47,325 nt of DNA from Anaerosomatales bacterium (lineage in GTDB: Bacteria > Actinomycetota > Coriobacteriia > Anaerosomatales > Anaerosomataceae), in NCBI GenBank assembly GCA_030019445.1, contig JASEEU010000010.1, forward strand, positions 1 through 47,325, read 5' to 3'. Below are positions 4,180 through 45,687 of the stretch, in pieces. How positions within the stretch are numbered: position 1 is the first letter of the stretch; every line of letters starts with the position of its first letter. Below the pieces are notes generated by a model that was not told where the DNA came from, searched no databases, and worked only from the letters and a program-made list of their open reading frames with translations. The translations under genes were made by a program, and so were the position numbers.

Positions 4180-5201
4180 GCGAGCGCGCCGTCCGCGTCG
4201 GTGCCGTCGGATTCGGCTACTGGGGCCCCAACCTCGTCCGCAATCTCGACCGCCTCGGCGACGCCGACCTCGTGGCCGCGTGCGACGCCTCGGAGGGCAA
4301 TCGCGCCAAGCTCGCTGCCGCCTACCCGGACGTCGCCGTGCACGGCGACCTCGCCGACATGCTGGCCGCGCACGAGCTCGACGCGGTGGTCATCGCCACG
4401 TCGGCGCCCACGCACTATGCGCTCGCCCGGCAGGTCCTCGAGGCGGGGCTGCACTGTTTCGTGGAGAAGCCGCTCACGCTGACCTCCGCCGACGCGCTCG
4501 AGCTCGTCAAGCTGGCCGAGGAGCGCGGCGTGGTCCTGATGGTCGGGCACCTGATGGTCTACCACTCGGCGGTCGAGTTCATAAAGCGGACCATCGACTC
4601 GGGCGAGCTCGGCGACGTGCTCTACCTGTACGCGCAGCGTCTGAACCTCGGCAAGGTGCGTACCGAGGAGAACGCGTTCTGGTCGCTGGCGCCGCACGAC
4701 GTCTCCGTGGCGCTCTATCTGCTCGGCGAGACGCCCGATAGCGTCTCGGCATCCGGCGCCGCGTACCTGAACGAGGGCGTGGACGACACCGTCTTCGCCA
4801 ACCTGCACTTCCCGAGCGGCAAGATGGTGAACATCCACGTGAGCTGGCTCGACCCGCACAAGGTCCGCAAGTTCACGATCGTCGGCACCAAGAAGATGCT
4901 CGTCTTCGACGACATGCAGGCCACCGAGAAGGTCTGGATCTACGACAAGGGCGTCGTGCCAAAGCAGGCGCTGTCCTACGGCGAGGACCTCACGCTGCGG
5001 TTCGGCGACATCAACGTGCCGTTCCTGAAGATGGGCGAGCCGCTCGCCGCGGAGGTGCAGCACTTCCTCGACTGCTGCCGCACCGGTGCCACGCCCCGCT
5101 CCAGCGGGCGCGACGGCCTGGCGGTCGTCCGCATCCTCGAAGCGGTCGACGAGTCGATCCGCGCCAACGGCGCGCCGTCGCCGATCTCCCTGGAGGGCTG
5201 A
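4176..5201 (+). CDS. wbpB: Gfo/Idh/MocA-family UDP-GlcNAcA 3-dehydrogenase (WbpB type)
   Basis: A 341-residue oxidoreductase, predicted to oxidise C3 of UDP-GlcNAcA to the 3-keto sugar used by the following aminotransferase. Rossmann motif VGFGYWGPNLVRN; the family EKP motif is in FVEKPLTLTSADALELVKLA, with the catalytic lysine. A later APHDVSVALYLLG segment carries the conserved His/Asp region of the C-terminal substrate domain. The GTG start at 4176 overlaps the wbpA stop by four bases, and wbpD follows after three bases, so the genes are tightly coupled. The function rests on the family plus the conserved wbp order. Confidence 0.87.
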   Translation: MSERAVRVGAVGFGYWGPNLVRNLDRLGDADLVAACDASEGNRAKLAAAYPDVAVHGDLADMLAAHELDAVVIATSAPTHYALARQVLEAGLHCFVEKPLTLTSADALELVKLAEERGVVLMVGHLMVYHSAVEFIKRTIDSGELGDVLYLYAQRLNLGKVRTEENAFWSLAPHDVSVALYLLGETPDSVSASGAAYLNEGVDDTVFANLHFPSGKMVNIHVSWLDPHKVRKFTIVGTKKMLVFDDMQATEKVWIYDKGVVPKQALSYGEDLTLRFGDINVPFLKMGEPLAAEVQHFLDCCRTGATPRSSGRDGLAVVRILEAVDESIRANGAPSPISLEG

Positions 5202-5204
5202 GCG

Positions 5205-5945
5205 ATGGAGTCCCGCATCAGCGCGGGAGCGCACGTCGGACGTGACTTCGCTTGCGGCGCCGGGTGCGTCGTCCACGACGACGTCTCCATCGGCGATGGC
5301 GTCACGCTCGGCAACCATGTGATCGTCTACGAGGGCACCGAGCTCGGCGACGGCGTCAACGTCGCCGACTTCGCTGTTCTCGGCAAACAGCCGCGCCTCG
5401 GCGCGCGATCCACCGCCAAGAGCGGATCGCTCGGCCCGCTGCGCGTCGGCGCCGGCACGAGCGTCGGCTCGCACACCGTGCTGATGGCGGGTACGACGAT
5501 CGGCGAGCGCTGCATCGTGGGCGACAACGCGGGCGTCCGTGAGCGGTGCCGGATCGGCGACGACGTGATCGTCGGTCGGGCCGTGACCGTCGAGAACGCG
5601 ACGACGATCGGCGACCGTACGCGCATCCAGACGGGCGCGTACATCACGGCGTACGTGACGCTCGAGGAAGACGTCTTCATCGCGCCTATGGTCGTCACGA
5701 CCAACGACAACTACATGGGGCGCACGGAGAAGCGCCTTGCCGAGATGAAGGGCTGCACCGTTCGACGTCGCGCGCGTGTCGGCGGCGGCGTGCACATCCT
5801 CCCCGGGGTCGAGATCGGGGAGGAGGCCTTCATCGCCACGGGCGCCATCGTGACCAGAGACATCCCGCCGCGCGTCGTTGCGATGGGCGTTCCCGCACGT
5901 CCGGTCCGTGACGTGCCCGCCGAGGAGCTTCTGGAGAACCAGTAA
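5205..5945 (+). CDS. wbpD: Left-handed beta-helix N-acetyltransferase (WbpD type)
   Basis: A 246-residue protein made largely of hexapeptide repeats ([LIV]-G-x4), for example [30 protein letters not shown] and [13 protein letters not shown]. It ends in the [10 protein letters not shown] cap common in sugar acetyltransferases. In this context it should acetylate the 3-amino group of UDP-GlcNAc3NA with acetyl-CoA. It is longer than the roughly 190-residue WbpD of Pseudomonas because extra beta-helix coils sit at the N-terminus. The [11 protein letters not shown] segment lies in the usual catalytic loop region. The wbp order supports the assignment; the exact acyl donor is not visible in the sequence. 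Confidence 0.85.
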
Positions 5946-6029
5946 CGGGCGAGTGACGAGGCCCGGGGCCGGCCTGACGCCGTGCCATCATGTGGAGACC
6001 GTCCGTAGCGCGAGAGGAGCGCATGTAGC

Positions 6030-40026: not shown

Positions 40027-40713
40027 GTGGGCGCAGTGCTCGATCTGCTCTTCCCGCCGCGGTGCTGCGCGTGCGGCGTGCCGGACACGCTGCTCTGCGA
40101 CGCGTGCCGTGCGGGGCTTCGGCCGATCGACCCTGCGCGGGCCTGTCCCCGGTGCGGCGCTCCGATCGTCCGGAGGGCCTGCCCGGAGTGTCGGGGGCGC
40201 GCCTACGCGTTCGAGGCGACCCGCGCGGTCGGCCTCTTCGCACCGCCGCTCTCGAACCTCGTCGTCACGTTCAAGGACGGGCCGGAGCGCAGACTGGCGT
40301 CCGAGCTTGGCGGGTTGCTCGCGGCGACCGCCATCGGGCTCACCGACGTGGCGATCGTTCCCGTGCCCGCCACCGCCGCAGCCGTGCGACGTCGGGGCTT
40401 CGACCACATGCGCGTCCTCGCGGGTGCGCTCGGCCGCAGGATCGGCACGCCGGTGGCGCCGTGCCTCGCCGCCGGTCGCTCGGCCGACCAGCGTGAGCTG
40501 TCACGCGATGAGCGCGCCCGGAACGTGTCGGGGGTGTTCGGACTTCAGGCGCCGCCGCCGCGCGAGGTCCTGCTGCTCGATGATGTCTTCACGACCGGCG
40601 CGACGCTCGACGCCGCGGCGCAGGTGCTGCTGCAGGGTGGGGCAGAGCACGTGACGACGCTCGTCGTGGCGCGTGTCGTCAATCCCATGACGCCCGTCCC
40701 TGCCGATGCCTAG
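40027..40713 (+). CDS. comF: ComF-family amidophosphoribosyltransferase-like protein
   Basis: A 228-residue protein starting at GTG. Two zinc-binding Cys pairs at the N-terminus (CCAC with CDAC; CPRC with CPEC) form the double zinc ribbon of ComFC. A type I phosphoribosyltransferase fold follows, with the PRPP motif LLLDDVFTTGATL (about residues 182-194). ComF/ComFC proteins act with ComFA in handling imported single-stranded DNA during natural transformation; no comFA is in this window. In many Gram-positive genomes comF lies next to hpf/raiA. Here the hpf gene is about 4.4 kb downstream, separated by a structured RNA and an ABC operon. Confidence 0.9.
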   Translation: MGAVLDLLFPPRCCACGVPDTLLCDACRAGLRPIDPARACPRCGAPIVRRACPECRGRAYAFEATRAVGLFAPPLSNLVVTFKDGPERRLASELGGLLAATAIGLTDVAIVPVPATAAAVRRRGFDHMRVLAGALGRRIGTPVAPCLAAGRSADQRELSRDERARNVSGVFGLQAPPPREVLLLDDVFTTGATLDAAAQVLLQGGAEHVTTLVVARVVNPMTPVPADA

Positions 40714-40730
40714 CATGCTGCCGAGGGTGC

Positions 40731-40736
40731 TATACT
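40731..40736 (+). promoter_or_regulatory. -10 box placing a transcript start at the 5' end of the structured RNA
   Basis: TATACT, with predicted start near 40743, one base before the 5' strand of the closing helix of the RNA (40744). That coincidence supports both calls. No clear -35 box. Confidence 0.55.
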
Positions 40737-40742
40737 TCTGGT

Positions 40743-40981
40743 TCGCTTCCACCCGGGTCTGTGGTTGCGGGTGCCTCGGCACCCAAGTCCAGGGCAGGTG
40801 CGGCCGAAAGGACCCACGTAAGCCGGAGGGCCTTGTGCCTCCGTGTGAGCATGGCGCACCTTAGGGGTAAGTCGTACCGTCCGCCGCGAGGCGGGCGAGA
40901 GGGCCACTAGTGAGATAGCATCAAGCGACAGTCCCGGTACGCGAGTGTGGGGCCAAAGACCAGGTCAGCCGGGTGGGAGCG
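40743..40981 (+). ncRNA. Structured RNA of about 240 nt between comF and the ABC operon; possible raiA RNA
   Basis: The 5' and 3' ends close with a 12-bp helix (40744-40755 with 40970-40981, one G-U), stacked on GGTCTGTGG (40756-40764) paired with CCAAAGACC (40953-40961) with one mismatch. Inside are AGGTGCG/CGCACCT (40796-40802 with 40855-40861) enclosing CGGAGG/CCTCCG (40824-40829 with 40838-40843). There is also a CTCG-loop hairpin at 40769-40784, and CGTACCG/CGGTACG (40873-40879 with 40935-40941) enclosing CCGCC-GCGA-GGCGG (40881-40894). No protein-coding frame fits. Position next to comF, with hpf further down, recalls the raiA RNA motif described in Actinobacteria and Firmicutes. A riboswitch-like leader of the ABC operon is the main alternative, since the next start codon is only 23 bases past the closing helix. 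Confidence 0.7.
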
Positions 40982-41003
40982 TCGAGCGACGAAGGGAGAT
41001 CGC

Positions 41004-41846
41004 GTGCGAGCGCTACGCATCATCGCCGCCATGCTCGTGGCGGCCGTGCTCATCGCAGGTGCAGGCTGCAAGAAGGAGGCCGAGGAGCCGGCGCTCGAGC
41101 CTAAGATCGCGCCGCCCGCGATCGCCGAGGCCGGCGTCCTGAGGGCCGGCGTCGACCTCGACTACCCGCCGTTCGCGGGCACGGTCGACGGCGAGACGGT
41201 GGGCATCGACGTCGACGTCGCGGCAGCGATAGCCGAGCGGCTCGGGCTCGAACTCGAGCTTGTCGACGTGAAGCCGGAGGGTCTTGGCGCGGCGCTCGCC
41301 GAGGGCGACGTGGATATCGCGCTCGCAGCGGTTCCGATCGCCGACGCGGTCGTCTCTGACGTCGCTGTGGCAGGCTCCTATCTCGTCGACGGCCCGGCGA
41401 TCTTCTCGATGGTCACGACCGCGAGCGCCGAGCCGACGCCGACCGCCGCATCGCTCGGCGGTCGCCGCGTTGGCGTGCAGACCGGGACGCTCGGCTACTG
41501 GCGCCTGCAGGACGACTACGGCTCCGGCTTCGCCACCGAGTTCGAGACGCTCGAGCAGGCGTTCGCGGCGCTCGCTGCGGGGGAGATCGACGTCGTCGTG
41601 TGCGACGCTGTCGTCGGCGGCTACCTCGGCCGCGACTTCCCCGACGTGCGGCTGCGCGGGCAGTACGGGACGGCCGCGCCCCTCGGCGTGACCGTTGCCC
41701 CGGAAGCCACCGAGCTCGAGCAGGCCGTCCGGGAGACCCTCGATGCGCTGGCCGCCGAAGGCGTTCTGGACACCATCCGCCGGAAGTGGGTCGGCGAGCT
41801 TCCGCGGCTCGAGGTGCCGTCGAGCGAGGTCACAGCCACGCCCTGA
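41004..41846 (+). CDS. Amino-acid ABC transporter substrate-binding lipoprotein, normal domain order
   Basis: A 280-residue solute-binding protein of family 3 (PF00497). The GTG at 41004 follows GAAGGGAG and begins a lipoprotein signal (RALRIIAAMLVAAVLIAGAG before Cys); the longer frame would read through the structured RNA. Lobe I starts VLRAGVDLDYPPFAGTVDGE, and lobe II follows with GGRRVGVQTGTLGYW and IDVVVCDAVVGGYLG. It ends in the usual VLDTIRRKWVGELP. The set suggests uptake of a polar amino acid or cystine-like ligand; specificity cannot be read. A 12-bp hairpin separates it from the second binding protein. Confidence 0.88.
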   Translation: MRALRIIAAMLVAAVLIAGAGCKKEAEEPALEPKIAPPAIAEAGVLRAGVDLDYPPFAGTVDGETVGIDVDVAAAIAERLGLELELVDVKPEGLGAALAEGDVDIALAAVPIADAVVSDVAVAGSYLVDGPAIFSMVTTASAEPTPTAASLGGRRVGVQTGTLGYWRLQDDYGSGFATEFETLEQAFAALAAGEIDVVVCDAVVGGYLGRDFPDVRLRGQYGTAAPLGVTVAPEATELEQAVRETLDALAAEGVLDTIRRKWVGELPRLEVPSSEVTATP

Positions 41847-41871
41847 CCGACGTCCTCATCTGCATACGTGT

Positions 41872-41902
41872 CGCAGGGTCCGGGCGGTGTCCGGACCCTG
41901 CG
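41872..41902 (+). terminator. Strong hairpin after the first binding-protein gene
   Basis: A perfect 12-bp stem (CGCAGGGTCCGG with CCGGACCCTGCG) and 7-base loop, 26 bases after the stop. There is no T-run afterwards. Together with the -10 box at 41967 it suggests the second binding protein has its own transcript. Confidence 0.6.
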
Positions 41903-41966
41903 TGCATCCTGGCCGGTCATTTGTGCATACAGCACATCGGCTGGCGCAATCTATGCGCTCTTGCGA

Positions 41967-41972
41967 TATAGT
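41967..41972 (+). promoter_or_regulatory. -10 box for the permuted binding protein and ABC genes
   Basis: TATAGT in the only AT-rich patch between the two binding-protein genes, about 70 bases before the ATG at 42042. The -35 region is not convincing. Confidence 0.45.
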
Positions 41973-42041
41973 TATGCAGCGTGATGTGACGGAATGGCGC
42001 GCGACGCGCGCCGGTAGGCTGTGGATGGAGGAGGACAGCTC

Positions 42042-42920
42042 ATGGGCAAGAGCAAGAAGTTGCTCGCACTTCTGCTGACGCTCGCGCTCGTCTTCAGCGC
42101 CTTCGCACTCGTCGGCTGCAACGGCGATGACGGCGAAGACGGCGGTGAGGACGGCGGCGGGACCGAGGCCGAGGCCACGATCCAGGGCGTCGACGATCTG
42201 GGCGAGGGCGACAAGGTCGGTGTGCAGTCCGGTACCACGGGTGAGGCGTGGGCACGCGAGAACCTCGAGCCGAACGGCGTCGAGGTCGTGCCGTACGATG
42301 ACATCCTCCTGGCGTTCTCGGCCCTGCAGGCCGGCGACGTCGATGGCGTCATCAACGACCTCCCGATCTCTCAGGACGTCGTGAAGGACGAGACGCGCGG
42401 ACTGGTCATCGTCGAAGAGATCCAGACGGACGAGACCTACGGCTTCGCGTTCAACAAGAGCAACAACTCGCTGCGCGACGCCGTGAACTGGGCGCTGGCC
42501 GAGGTCATCGCCGACGGCACGTACGACGAGGTCTACGAGAAGTGGTTCGGTGCCCCCCCGATGTCGATGCCTGAGCCTGAGGTGACGGTGGCCGAGAAGC
42601 CCGCCGACATCCAGACGCTGCAGGACGGCAAGATCATCGTCGGCTCGGACACCGCGTTCCCGCCCTTCGAGAACGTCGAGGGTGGCGAGGTCGTGGGCTT
42701 CGACGTCGACCTGATGAACGCGATCGGCGAGAAGCTCGGCCTCGACGTCGAGTTCAAGAGCTACAAGTTCGACGCGCTCATCACGGGCGTGCAGGCGGGT
42801 ACCGAGTTCGACATGGTCGCTTCGGCCATGACGATCACCGAGGAGCGCAAGCAGTCGGTCGACTTCTCGAACCCGTACATCAACTCGAACCAGTCGCTCG
42901 CGGTCAAGGCTGCCGAGTAG
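42042..42920 (+). CDS. Circularly permuted amino-acid ABC substrate-binding lipoprotein
   Basis: A 292-residue lipoprotein (GGAGGAGG before the ATG; signal peptide with ALVGC lipobox at about 27-31, then an acidic Gly/Asp/Glu linker). The family 3 binding-protein halves are in reverse order. Residues 47-170 are the second lobe and C-terminal closing segment (DKVGVQSGTTGEAW, VVPYDDILLAFSALQAGDVD, DGTYDEVYEKWFG). After a linker, residues 197-292 are the first lobe (KIIVGSDTAFPPFENVEGGE, EFDMVASAMTITEERKQSVD, FSNPYINSNQSLAV), where a normal protein begins. Each half is well conserved and occurs once, so it looks like a true permutation, perhaps from a tandem duplicate that lost its outer halves. 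It is next to the permease and ATPase of the same system. Confidence 0.85.
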   Translation: MGKSKKLLALLLTLALVFSAFALVGCNGDDGEDGGEDGGGTEAEATIQGVDDLGEGDKVGVQSGTTGEAWARENLEPNGVEVVPYDDILLAFSALQAGDVDGVINDLPISQDVVKDETRGLVIVEEIQTDETYGFAFNKSNNSLRDAVNWALAEVIADGTYDEVYEKWFGAPPMSMPEPEVTVAEKPADIQTLQDGKIIVGSDTAFPPFENVEGGEVVGFDVDLMNAIGEKLGLDVEFKSYKFDALITGVQAGTEFDMVASAMTITEERKQSVDFSNPYINSNQSLAVKAAE

Positions 42921-42945
42921 CAGACAGACTGACTGACAAGCCAAA

Positions 42946-42971
42946 GGGCCGGCGGGACAACCCGCCGGCCC
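42946..42971 (+). terminator. Hairpin between the binding-protein and permease genes
   Basis: An 11-bp perfect stem (GGGCCGGCGGG with CCCGCCGGCCC) and ACAA loop, 26 bases after the stop and followed by TGCGG rather than a T-run. Such hairpins inside ABC operons usually protect the upstream message or attenuate the downstream one, giving more binding protein than permease. Confidence 0.6.
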
Positions 42972-43005
42972 TGCGGTATGACCCCCTGTCGAGGAGGCGG
43001 GCCGA

Positions 43006-44292
43006 GTGAATCCCAAGCTCCGAAGGACCATCTGGTACGCGGCCAACGTGACGGTATTCCTCGTGCTTGCCGTCCTGGTGCTGACGATGGTCGGTCCCGC
43101 TCGCCTGCAGTTCGAGCGGCCCGCGGACCGGGGAGAGACAGGTCTCGTCGCTGACACGTACATCGCTCCACCCGCTCGCGACACCATCACCATCGGGAAG
43201 CGGGGCAACGTCCGGATCGCGCAGGCCGAGATGGACGTCGAGGTCGGTGCGACGCTCGAGCGCGATCCCGCCGGTGGTGGGATGGACGACTCGGCGTGGC
43301 TGCTGTCCGCCGCCGAGACGAGCCCGACCCCGGTGCTGCTCAACGGGGAGCCGGTCGAAGGCACGCCCGCGGTCGAGGCGGGAGACGTCATCACCGTGGG
43401 CGGCGTGGATGTGACGTTCGACGGCAGCCGCCGTGGCGTCCTCGGCTTCCTGGACTGGTGGGAAGCGGGTCGCATCTCGCACCTGTTCGCGTCGCCTGAG
43501 GTATTCGCCGAGGCGTTCCCGATCCTGCTCGCTGCTTTCCCGGTCTCGCTCCTGGCGGTCCTCGTGTCGTTCAGCCTCGCCATTCCCGGAGGTCTGGCGC
43601 TCGCATTCATGAAGATGGCGCGTACGCGCTGGCTGCGATGGCCGGCGACCATGTACATCGACGTCATCCGCGGCACTCCGATCTTCTTGCAGATCCTGCT
43701 CGTCTTCTTCGGGTTGCCGCTGATGCCGCCGTGGCAAGCGCTCATCTCGGCGCTGCCCCAGCTCAACGACGCCGGACCTTTCGGCGTCACGTGGTCGCTC
43801 TACCTGCGCGCATTCGTCGTGCTGAGCTTCAACTCCTCGGCATACATGGCCGAGATATTCCGTGCCGGCATCGAGTCCATCTCCAAGGGACAGATGGAGG
43901 CGGCGCGCTCGCTCGGTATGAGCGCCCCGCAGGCGATGGCGTACGTCATCATCCCGCAGACGGTACGACGCGTCCTGCCGACGATGATGTCCGAGTTCAT
44001 CCTGTTGTTCAAAGACACGTCGCTGTTCGCTGCGGTGGGCATGGCCGAGATCATCCTGCGGGCGCGAGAGGTCGCGTCCTCTACGCTCAACGTCTCGCCC
44101 TACCTGCTTGCTGCAGGCTTCTACCTGATCATCACCATCCCGCTCGGCCGCTTCGTCCAGAACCTTGAGAACCGCCTTGCGCGGGCCGAGGGAGGAGGCG
44201 CCGTGCGCGATGAGCCGAAGGAGACCGACGTGCAGGTGCCCGGCCATGATGCCGGCGACGGGACAGAACCCGCCGTGCTGGAGAGGGGGTGA
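43006..44292 (+). CDS. Amino-acid ABC transporter permease with FHA-like extracytoplasmic insert
   Basis: A 428-residue permease of the HisM/GlnP family, much longer than the usual 220-250. GAGGAGG precedes the GTG at 43006. TM1 spans about residues 8-30 ([20 protein letters not shown]). Residues about 58-141 then form a beta-rich domain with FHA-like strand order: [15 protein letters not shown], a middle strand [27 protein letters not shown] and [11 protein letters not shown]. The transporter core starts near residue 160 with [19 protein letters not shown] and includes the ATPase-contacting EAA loop [20 protein letters not shown]. The C-terminal tail of about 35 residues is charged. The phosphothreonine-binding Arg and Ser-x-x-His of signalling FHA domains are not evident. 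It overlaps the ATPase gene by four bases. Confidence 0.9.
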
Positions 44293-45044
44293 GCGACGTG
44301 ACCACCAACGAGAACGGCCCCGTTGTCAGGTTGTGCAACCTGCAGAAGCGCTTCGGCGATCTGGAGGTCCTCAAGGGCGTCGACATGGATGTGCAGAAGG
44401 GCGAGGTCGTCGTCATCCTCGGCCCGTCAGGCTCGGGAAAGTCGACGCTGCTCCGATGCGTGAACCGCCTTGAGATGCCGACGGGTGGTGAGGTGTGGCT
44501 CGAGGACATCCAGGTCAATCACCCCAAGACCGATATCAACAAGGTGCGCGAGCGCATCGGTATGGTGTTCCAGTCGTTCAACCTCTTCCCGCATCTCACT
44601 GCCAAGGGCAACGTCATGCTTGCGCAGCGCAAGGTGCTGAAGCGTTCCAAGGACGAGGCCGAGAGGATCGCCATCGAGCAGCTTGAGCGCGTCGACCTCG
44701 GCGACCGCGTCGACTACTACCCATCGCAGCTGTCGGGTGGACAGCAGCAGCGCGTGGCGATCGCCCGTGCGCTCGCGATGGACCCGCACGTGATGCTCTT
44801 CGACGAAGTGACCTCGGCGCTCGATCCCGAGCTCGTTCGCGGCGTCCTCGACGTCATGAAAGAGCTCGCACGCGGCGGCATGACCATGCTCGTGGTCACC
44901 CACGAGATGGGCTTCGCGCGCGACGTGGCGAGCCGCGCCGTCTTCATGGATGGCGGCGTTATCGTGGAGGAGGGTACGCCGAGCGCAGTGTTCGACAACC
45001 CGCAGAACGAGCGGACCAAGGACTTCCTCGGCCACATCGTCTGA
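44289..45044 (+). CDS. Amino-acid ABC transporter ATP-binding protein (GlnQ/HisP family)
   Basis: A 251-residue cytoplasmic ATPase. Walker [14 protein letters not shown] (from residue 45), Q-loop [10 protein letters not shown], signature [16 protein letters not shown], Walker [15 protein letters not shown] and H-loop VVTHEMGFA are all intact. The GTG at 44289 overlaps the permease stop; a GTG at 44298 has better spacing from GAGAGGGGG and may be the true start. It energises uptake through the permease at 43006. A long hairpin follows the gene. Confidence 0.95.
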
Positions 45045-45106: not shown

Positions 45107-45135
45107 GTAAGGACCGCGAACAAGGAGGTCTTGCC

Positions 45136-45687
45136 ATGAAGATGATCGTGAAGGGGCGTCGCACCGACGTCACGCCGGCGATCCGGGAGTACGCTGAGGA
45201 GAAGATCGGCCGAGTAGCCAAGATCCTCGACAGCATGATCATGAGCGCGGACGTCGAGTTGACCACCGAGTCCAACCCGTCCATCCCAGAGAACCAGATC
45301 GCCGAAGTCACGGTCTACACCAAGGGTCACGTCATCCGTGCCAAGGAATCGGCATCAGACATGTTCGCCGCGATCGACCTCGTCAGCGAGAAGCTCGAGC
45401 GTCAGGTGCGCAAGTTCAAGACGAAGATCGTCGACCGGCACACCAAGGCTCCGTCGCTGCCGGAAGCGATCAGCATGGCCGCCGCCGAGGAGCAGCAGGC
45501 CGAGCGCGAGCCCGCCATCGTCAAGACCAAGCGTCTCGACGTGAAGCCCATGACCCCCGACGAGGCGATTCTGCAGATGGAGCTGCTGGGACACGATTTC
45601 TTCGTGTTCTCTTCGGCTGAGACCGAGGAGATCAACGTCCTCTATCGCCGGAACGATGGCGATTACGGCCTGATCGAGCCGTCGTAG
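45136..45687 (+). CDS. hpf: Ribosome hibernation promoting factor, long form
   Basis: A 183-residue protein. AAGGAGG seven bases before the ATG at 45136 fixes the start; the open frame further upstream overlaps the ATPase gene. The N-terminal S30AE/RaiA domain (about 1-100; MKMIVKGRRTDVTPAIREYA) binds the decoding centre of the small subunit. The C-terminal domain (about 125-183; IVKTKRLDVKPMTPDEAILQ, then LLGHDFFVFSSAETEEINVL and YRRNDGDYGLI) dimerises to give 100S ribosomes. This two-domain form is normal for Actinobacteria and Firmicutes. A strong terminator follows. Confidence 0.95.
   Translation: MKMIVKGRRTDVTPAIREYAEEKIGRVAKILDSMIMSADVELTTESNPSIPENQIAEVTVYTKGHVIRAKESASDMFAAIDLVSEKLERQVRKFKTKIVDRHTKAPSLPEAISMAAAEEQQAEREPAIVKTKRLDVKPMTPDEAILQMELLGHDFFVFSSAETEEINVLYRRNDGDYGLIEPS

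Follow-up and report, generated by a model that had tools for sequence, protein, structure and literature searches.

The window, i.e. the whole stretch of DNA analysed here (47,325 nt), contains a structured RNA between comF and a four-gene ABC set (41004–45044), which stands between the RNA and hpf. Both flanking genes had been named as the context of the RNA in the original prediction: comF is directly upstream, and hpf is downstream but 4.1 kb off, behind the ABC set. The features of the locus are listed below with the evidence for each; all are on the + strand.

40027–40713 (+): comF, upstream neighbour (DZR_2 and PRTase domains)
40728–40736 (+): extended −10 box, TGC-TATACT (sequence; TANNNT in 81/81 and TGNTANNNT in 73/81 class loci)
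40744–40981 (+): raiA (ModT) RNA, including a 4-bp outer extension of P1 (RF03072, structure, covariation)
40744–40761 (+): 5' strand of P1, pairing with 40966–40981 (two-sided changes in 7/16 pairs; 98.4% of cells paired)
40769–40784 (+): P2, optional hairpin at junction J1c-3a, loop CUCG (two-sided changes in 4/6 pairs)
40796–40802 (+): pseudoknot pk-1, P3-loop half, pairing with 40855–40861 (100% paired; two-sided changes in 2/7 pairs)
40855–40861 (+): pseudoknot pk-1, pk-loop half (cryo-EM position, covariation)
40873–40941 (+): P6-P7-P8 domain, 'variant 2' of the raiA family (two-sided changes: P6 2/5, P7 2/5, P8 2/4)
40982–41003 (+): 22-nt spacer with a Shine-Dalgarno sequence (GGGAG) and no intrinsic terminator (sequence, terminator search)
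41004–41846 (+): SBP1, solute-binding-family lipoprotein, first gene after the RNA (PF00497, 5.8e-21)
42042–45044 (+): SBP2, permease and ATPase of an ABC transporter (Pfam)
45133–45687 (+): hpf, the raiA protein gene, 4.1 kb downstream (PF16321 and PF02482)

Identity and fold of the RNA

The RNA of the window is a member of the known raiA family (ModT in C. difficile) and not a new riboswitch class. The Rfam covariance model RF03072 matches positions 40748–40977 (+) with 157.1 bits (gathering cut-off 101.3; E = 1.8e-39) and over its full length (model positions 1–209 of 209). It is the only Rfam family above cut-off within the window, and a single raiA copy was detected in the source genome. 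The raiA identity had been a guess in the original prediction; it is borne out by this match, by covariation that includes pk-1 and by the presence of the RNA in 284 of the 296 Coriobacteriia genomes. The RNA is also found in 137 of the 396 genomes of a phylum sample, class members included.

Based on the folding energy, the stretch has a z-score of −1.75, and 10 of 200 shuffles fold equally well; thermodynamic folding was insufficient as the sole proof of structure. Since the energy alone is weak, the claim is carried by the covariance match and the comparative data. The modest z-score would agree with chance folding of GC-rich DNA, but the Rfam E value and the covariation refute that explanation, to which we give practically no weight. 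The published cryo-EM helices of the C. acetobutylicum RNA (accessible portion of PMC11751092) were transferred to the window with the help of the Rfam alignment. The alignment used for counting contains 41 sequences (the window, 20 of the same family and 20 of the same order), of which 40 are distinct; 61 pairs were counted, and 98.8% of the 2440 cells are paired. Two-sided changes are present in 26 of the 61 pairs, against a shuffle mean of 14.5 with none of the 500 shuffles reaching 26, and only 3–8 pairs show them once the partners are slid. The structured RNA that had been placed at 40731–40990 is therefore real, judged by the E value and these changes.

Concerning the individual helices, P1 pairs 40744–40756 with 40969–40981 (13 bp, one U.G), continues with 40759–40761 paired to 40966–40968 and then with 40762–40766 paired to 40958–40962; it exceeds the Rfam model by four pairs, reaching 40744 with 40981. 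Its inner part (40762–40766) is invariant in the alignment, P3b has one-sided changes only, and the bases of a candidate pk-2 are invariant and hence carry no covariation signal. The P2 hairpin has loops that interchange among relatives (CUCG, UUCG, GCAA and others). All seven pairs of pk-1 are present in the window, they are paired in all 40 distinct sequences and two of them covary; the location agrees with the cryo-EM model (accessible portion of PMC11751092). By our own identification, the nested stem in the Rfam model (model positions 33–39 with 86–92) corresponds to pk-1. In the I3a-3b region, position 43 is G, 44–46 are AAA and 28 is A. The GAAA at 40806–40809 is not a hairpin loop, as by position (43–46) it is the internal loop I3a-3b; the GCGA at 40886–40889, also of GNRA type, may cap P7. 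Either of the two could be the GNRA loop named in the original prediction.

Transcription of the RNA and the gap to SBP1

The TATACT of the extended −10 box occupies 40731–40736, and P1 starts 8 bases after it, in agreement with the earlier expectation of an end-closing stem beginning at the transcript start set by this box. A TANNNT motif is found 6–14 nt upstream of the RNA match in all 81 class loci (80 fetched loci and the window, picked from high-scoring matches and not at random). The extended form TGNTANNNT is found within the same interval in 73 of them; in the 80 loci whose upstream DNA is long enough, it occurs there 72 times, against 0.35 per equal-sized interval elsewhere. No sigma-70 promoter was found at the 9-of-12 threshold, the box being an extended −10 element without a −35 match. 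Based on the sequence, the raiA RNA is predicted to have its own extended −10 promoter, with transcription starting near 40743.

The next start codon had been described as lying close behind the closing helix, and it does: a GTG at 41004, 22 bases after P1. No intrinsic terminator was found on the + strand of the window. A terminator-like pattern is found within 110 nt of the RNA in eight of the 81 class loci, the window not among them, which means that transcription may end ahead of SBP1 in some lineages. An SBP-family lipoprotein is the next gene in 77 of the 81 loci, with its start 24–103 nt past the RNA match (24–37 nt in 56 of the 77; median 33). Looking at the interval from 45 nt before the RNA end to 12 nt before the start codon, an extended −10 element is found in none of the 77 loci and a bare TANNNT in nine. 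The RNA probably heads the SBP1 message, because it has its own promoter, no stop signal is visible and the two are directly adjacent. A plain neighbourhood would instead mean that the RNA ends by itself, through Rho or processing, and that SBP1 is read from its own unrecognised promoter or from comF, their adjacency being ancestral. High-GC genomes often lack U-run terminators, and this point, the nine bare TANNNT motifs and the fact that synteny is inherited would all fit; however, the spacer of the window is just 22 nt long and the gaps contain no extended −10 element, and we find this alternative improbable.

The original prediction had also allowed for a riboswitch-like leader. Its position directly before a start codon is confirmed, in 77 of the 81 class loci, but it is not a new RNA class. 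The pairing of the Shine-Dalgarno region with its own RNA is unspecific (native −24.85 kcal/mol, swapped −24.17 to −24.82 kcal/mol), and no riboswitch expression platform was found, neither a terminator nor specific pairing between the RNA and the Shine-Dalgarno region. A rigid structure of 238 nt near the ribosome site may hinder translation.

Association of the RNA with SBP1 in Coriobacteriia

A profile of SBP1 was built from 39 sequences and searched over the 296 class genomes, and 109 of the 150 matches listed were used. Among these, the best hits are located 25–142 nt downstream of a raiA RNA and on the same strand in 108 of the 108 that could be checked; in the 109th (G145) SBP1 is directly preceded by a truncated 3' end of the RNA, where the contig ends. 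G145 is one of the genomes with SBP1 but no raiA match that were checked; in another, G097, it is SBP1 itself that is cut by a contig edge. No SBP1 without the RNA was found among the matches listed from the 296 genomes, where contigs permit checking. The converse arrangement exists: in ten loci (L080, L084, L096, L329–L335) the RNA is present without SBP1, and hpf is the next gene. An RNA that has its own promoter and is read through into SBP1 is supported by this asymmetry, i.e. the RNA occurs without SBP1 and SBP1, where checkable, never without the RNA.

The permease match is absent from the fetched stretch in 37 of the 81 class loci, and hpf is not seen downstream in 19, some contigs simply ending. 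Seven loci have an inverted comF and no visible hpf, and the pair of RNA and SBP1 is still intact; that the pair outlasts the inversion of comF argues against a plain neighbourhood. Common descent alone could keep the two as neighbours. Across bacteria, the commonest neighbours of raiA RNA are comFC (74%) and raiA (66%), as quoted from a synteny study in the accessible portion of PMC11706538. Outside the class, no SBP match was found in the fetched flank of 60 Actinomycetota loci, and 48 of them have a same-strand hpf downstream (median gap 152 nt, range 20–923). In a few lineages of the class, the first SBP gene after the RNA is of the ordinary type (L075, at 86 nt, included in the 77; L078, at 639 nt, not counted).

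Some single cases were also noted. In a Veillonella locus (L175), a raiA RNA at 4737–4939 (191.6 bits) is followed by an ordinary SBP_bac_3-like gene (5191–6003) and a permease; as the protein has the ordinary T-x-x-R stretch and the gap of about 250 nt contains a terminator-like site, this locus was not counted. One genome (G117) contains two raiA RNAs on separate contigs (C201 and C208) with SBP1 behind each, and may be a mixed bin given its 5% contamination. A full-length raiA RNA (L133:3211–3451, 151.2 bits) is present on a contig titled as an Acidobacteria MAG, a group that is not among the two phyla mostly given for the family; contamination is possible. Three loci (L125, L152 and L156) match an exact 20-base raiA pattern and have no Rfam raiA match above cut-off; these matches are probably due to chance and call for caution with counts based on patterns only.

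SBP1 shares its Pfam domain (PF00497) with the SBP_bac_3 amino-acid binding proteins, and the solved sequence nearest to its profile is AncQR (E = 1.1e-53). The arginine of the T-x-x-R stretch binds carboxylate in these proteins. In contrast, only three of the 78 proteins aligned have arginine in that column, including those of the ordinary SBP2-type genes of L075 and L078; two further proteins have an arginine two columns off. Because this conserved residue is mostly missing, SBP1 may bind something unusual, or it may signal rather than transport. Concerning the other ABC genes, SBP2 (42042–42920) is circularly permuted: its N-terminal part corresponds to positions 51–131 of the SBP_bac_3 profile and its C-terminal part to positions 1–92. 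Among relatives at the same locus the order is permuted in some (e.g. L032–L035) and normal in others (e.g. L036 and L039), both within one family. The N-terminal 150–185 or so residues of the permease, encoded at 43006–43560, have no Pfam match and look FHA-like by eye, and many relatives align to the permease of the window only from about residue 145–161.

The class-wide association could also mean that the raiA RNA senses a ligand and controls the translation or transcription of SBP1, as a riboswitch does. The conserved leader position and the restriction of SBP1 to loci with the RNA, where checkable, speak for such a cis-acting regulator, and Rfam files RF03072 under 'Cis-reg; riboswitch'. 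However, the RNA is retained after loss of SBP1 in the ten loci above, the gap is variable in length (24–103 nt) and the Shine-Dalgarno region does not pair better with the native RNA than with swapped RNAs. Also, the RNA complements in trans in C. difficile and C. acetobutylicum, which speaks against a cis mechanism in those species (accessible portion of PMC11706538). On balance, we think it unlikely that the RNA regulates SBP1 in this way.

Proposed reading and comparison with known systems

The reading that we regard as probable from sequence comparison is that transcription of the raiA/ModT RNA starts at its own promoter and continues into SBP1, so that the RNA leads this message and is perhaps cut free. 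The extended −10 element at 40728–40736 would start transcription near 40743, and RNA polymerase would read through the raiA RNA into SBP1, and the SBP1 mRNA would carry the folded RNA of 238 nt as its 5' leader. The functional RNA would be cut free from the lipoprotein message, or terminated short of it, and would act in trans, as ModT does in Clostridia. SBP1 expression would then depend on the raiA locus, and the RNA would be independent of SBP1. Sporulation is not known from Coriobacteriia, and it is thus unlikely to be the general purpose of the RNA.

For the raiA/ModT family, a structure has been solved and knockout phenotypes are described, but its molecular function is not known. An RNA that is near-universal in one class, together with one dedicated gene, provides a concrete partner to test, and Coriobacteriia offer a second, non-clostridial system for asking whether the RNA acts in cis, in trans or both. 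A bolder reading, which we hold to be rather doubtful, is that the RNA of Coriobacteriia is wired in cis to a sensor-like extracellular lipoprotein, the state of the RNA (ligand- or growth-phase-dependent) setting SBP1 output within one signalling unit. SBP1 would be a binding protein with an altered pocket that stays next to the RNA even in loci that have lost the transporter, and such a unit would reveal the input, or the class of ligand, that has long been sought for raiA/ModT. The RNA itself is of a known kind; what is new is that, across the class, the raiA RNA is tied to one dedicated lipoprotein gene. We found this arrangement mentioned nowhere in the literature searched, which did not cover the main synteny study, and no mention of raiA in the accessible portion of PMC11109978.

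Compared with raiA/ModT (RF03072; ModT of C. difficile and the raiA motif of C. acetobutylicum), the window RNA gives the same full-length covariance match and likewise has P1, P3a, P3b, P5–P8, a 7-bp pk-1, comF upstream and its own promoter. It differs in the extra covarying P2 at J1c-3a, which the C. acetobutylicum RNA, as inferred from the helix numbering, does not have, and in its next gene, a solute-binding lipoprotein rather than hpf. According to the accessible portion of PMC11706538, ModT of C. difficile is abundant and stable, is made from a housekeeping promoter and has two 3' ends; its deletion results in a delayed stationary phase and in altered c-di-GMP and sporulation, and it complements in trans. 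Whereas ModT has two termination sites (same source), no terminator was found in the window. Like the metabolite riboswitches found before ABC transporter genes, the window RNA is structured and would lie in the 5' leader of a gene for a binding protein. It differs from them in that no expression platform was detected, in that raiA RNA persists without the downstream gene and in that its family acts in trans in Clostridia (accessible portion of PMC11706538).
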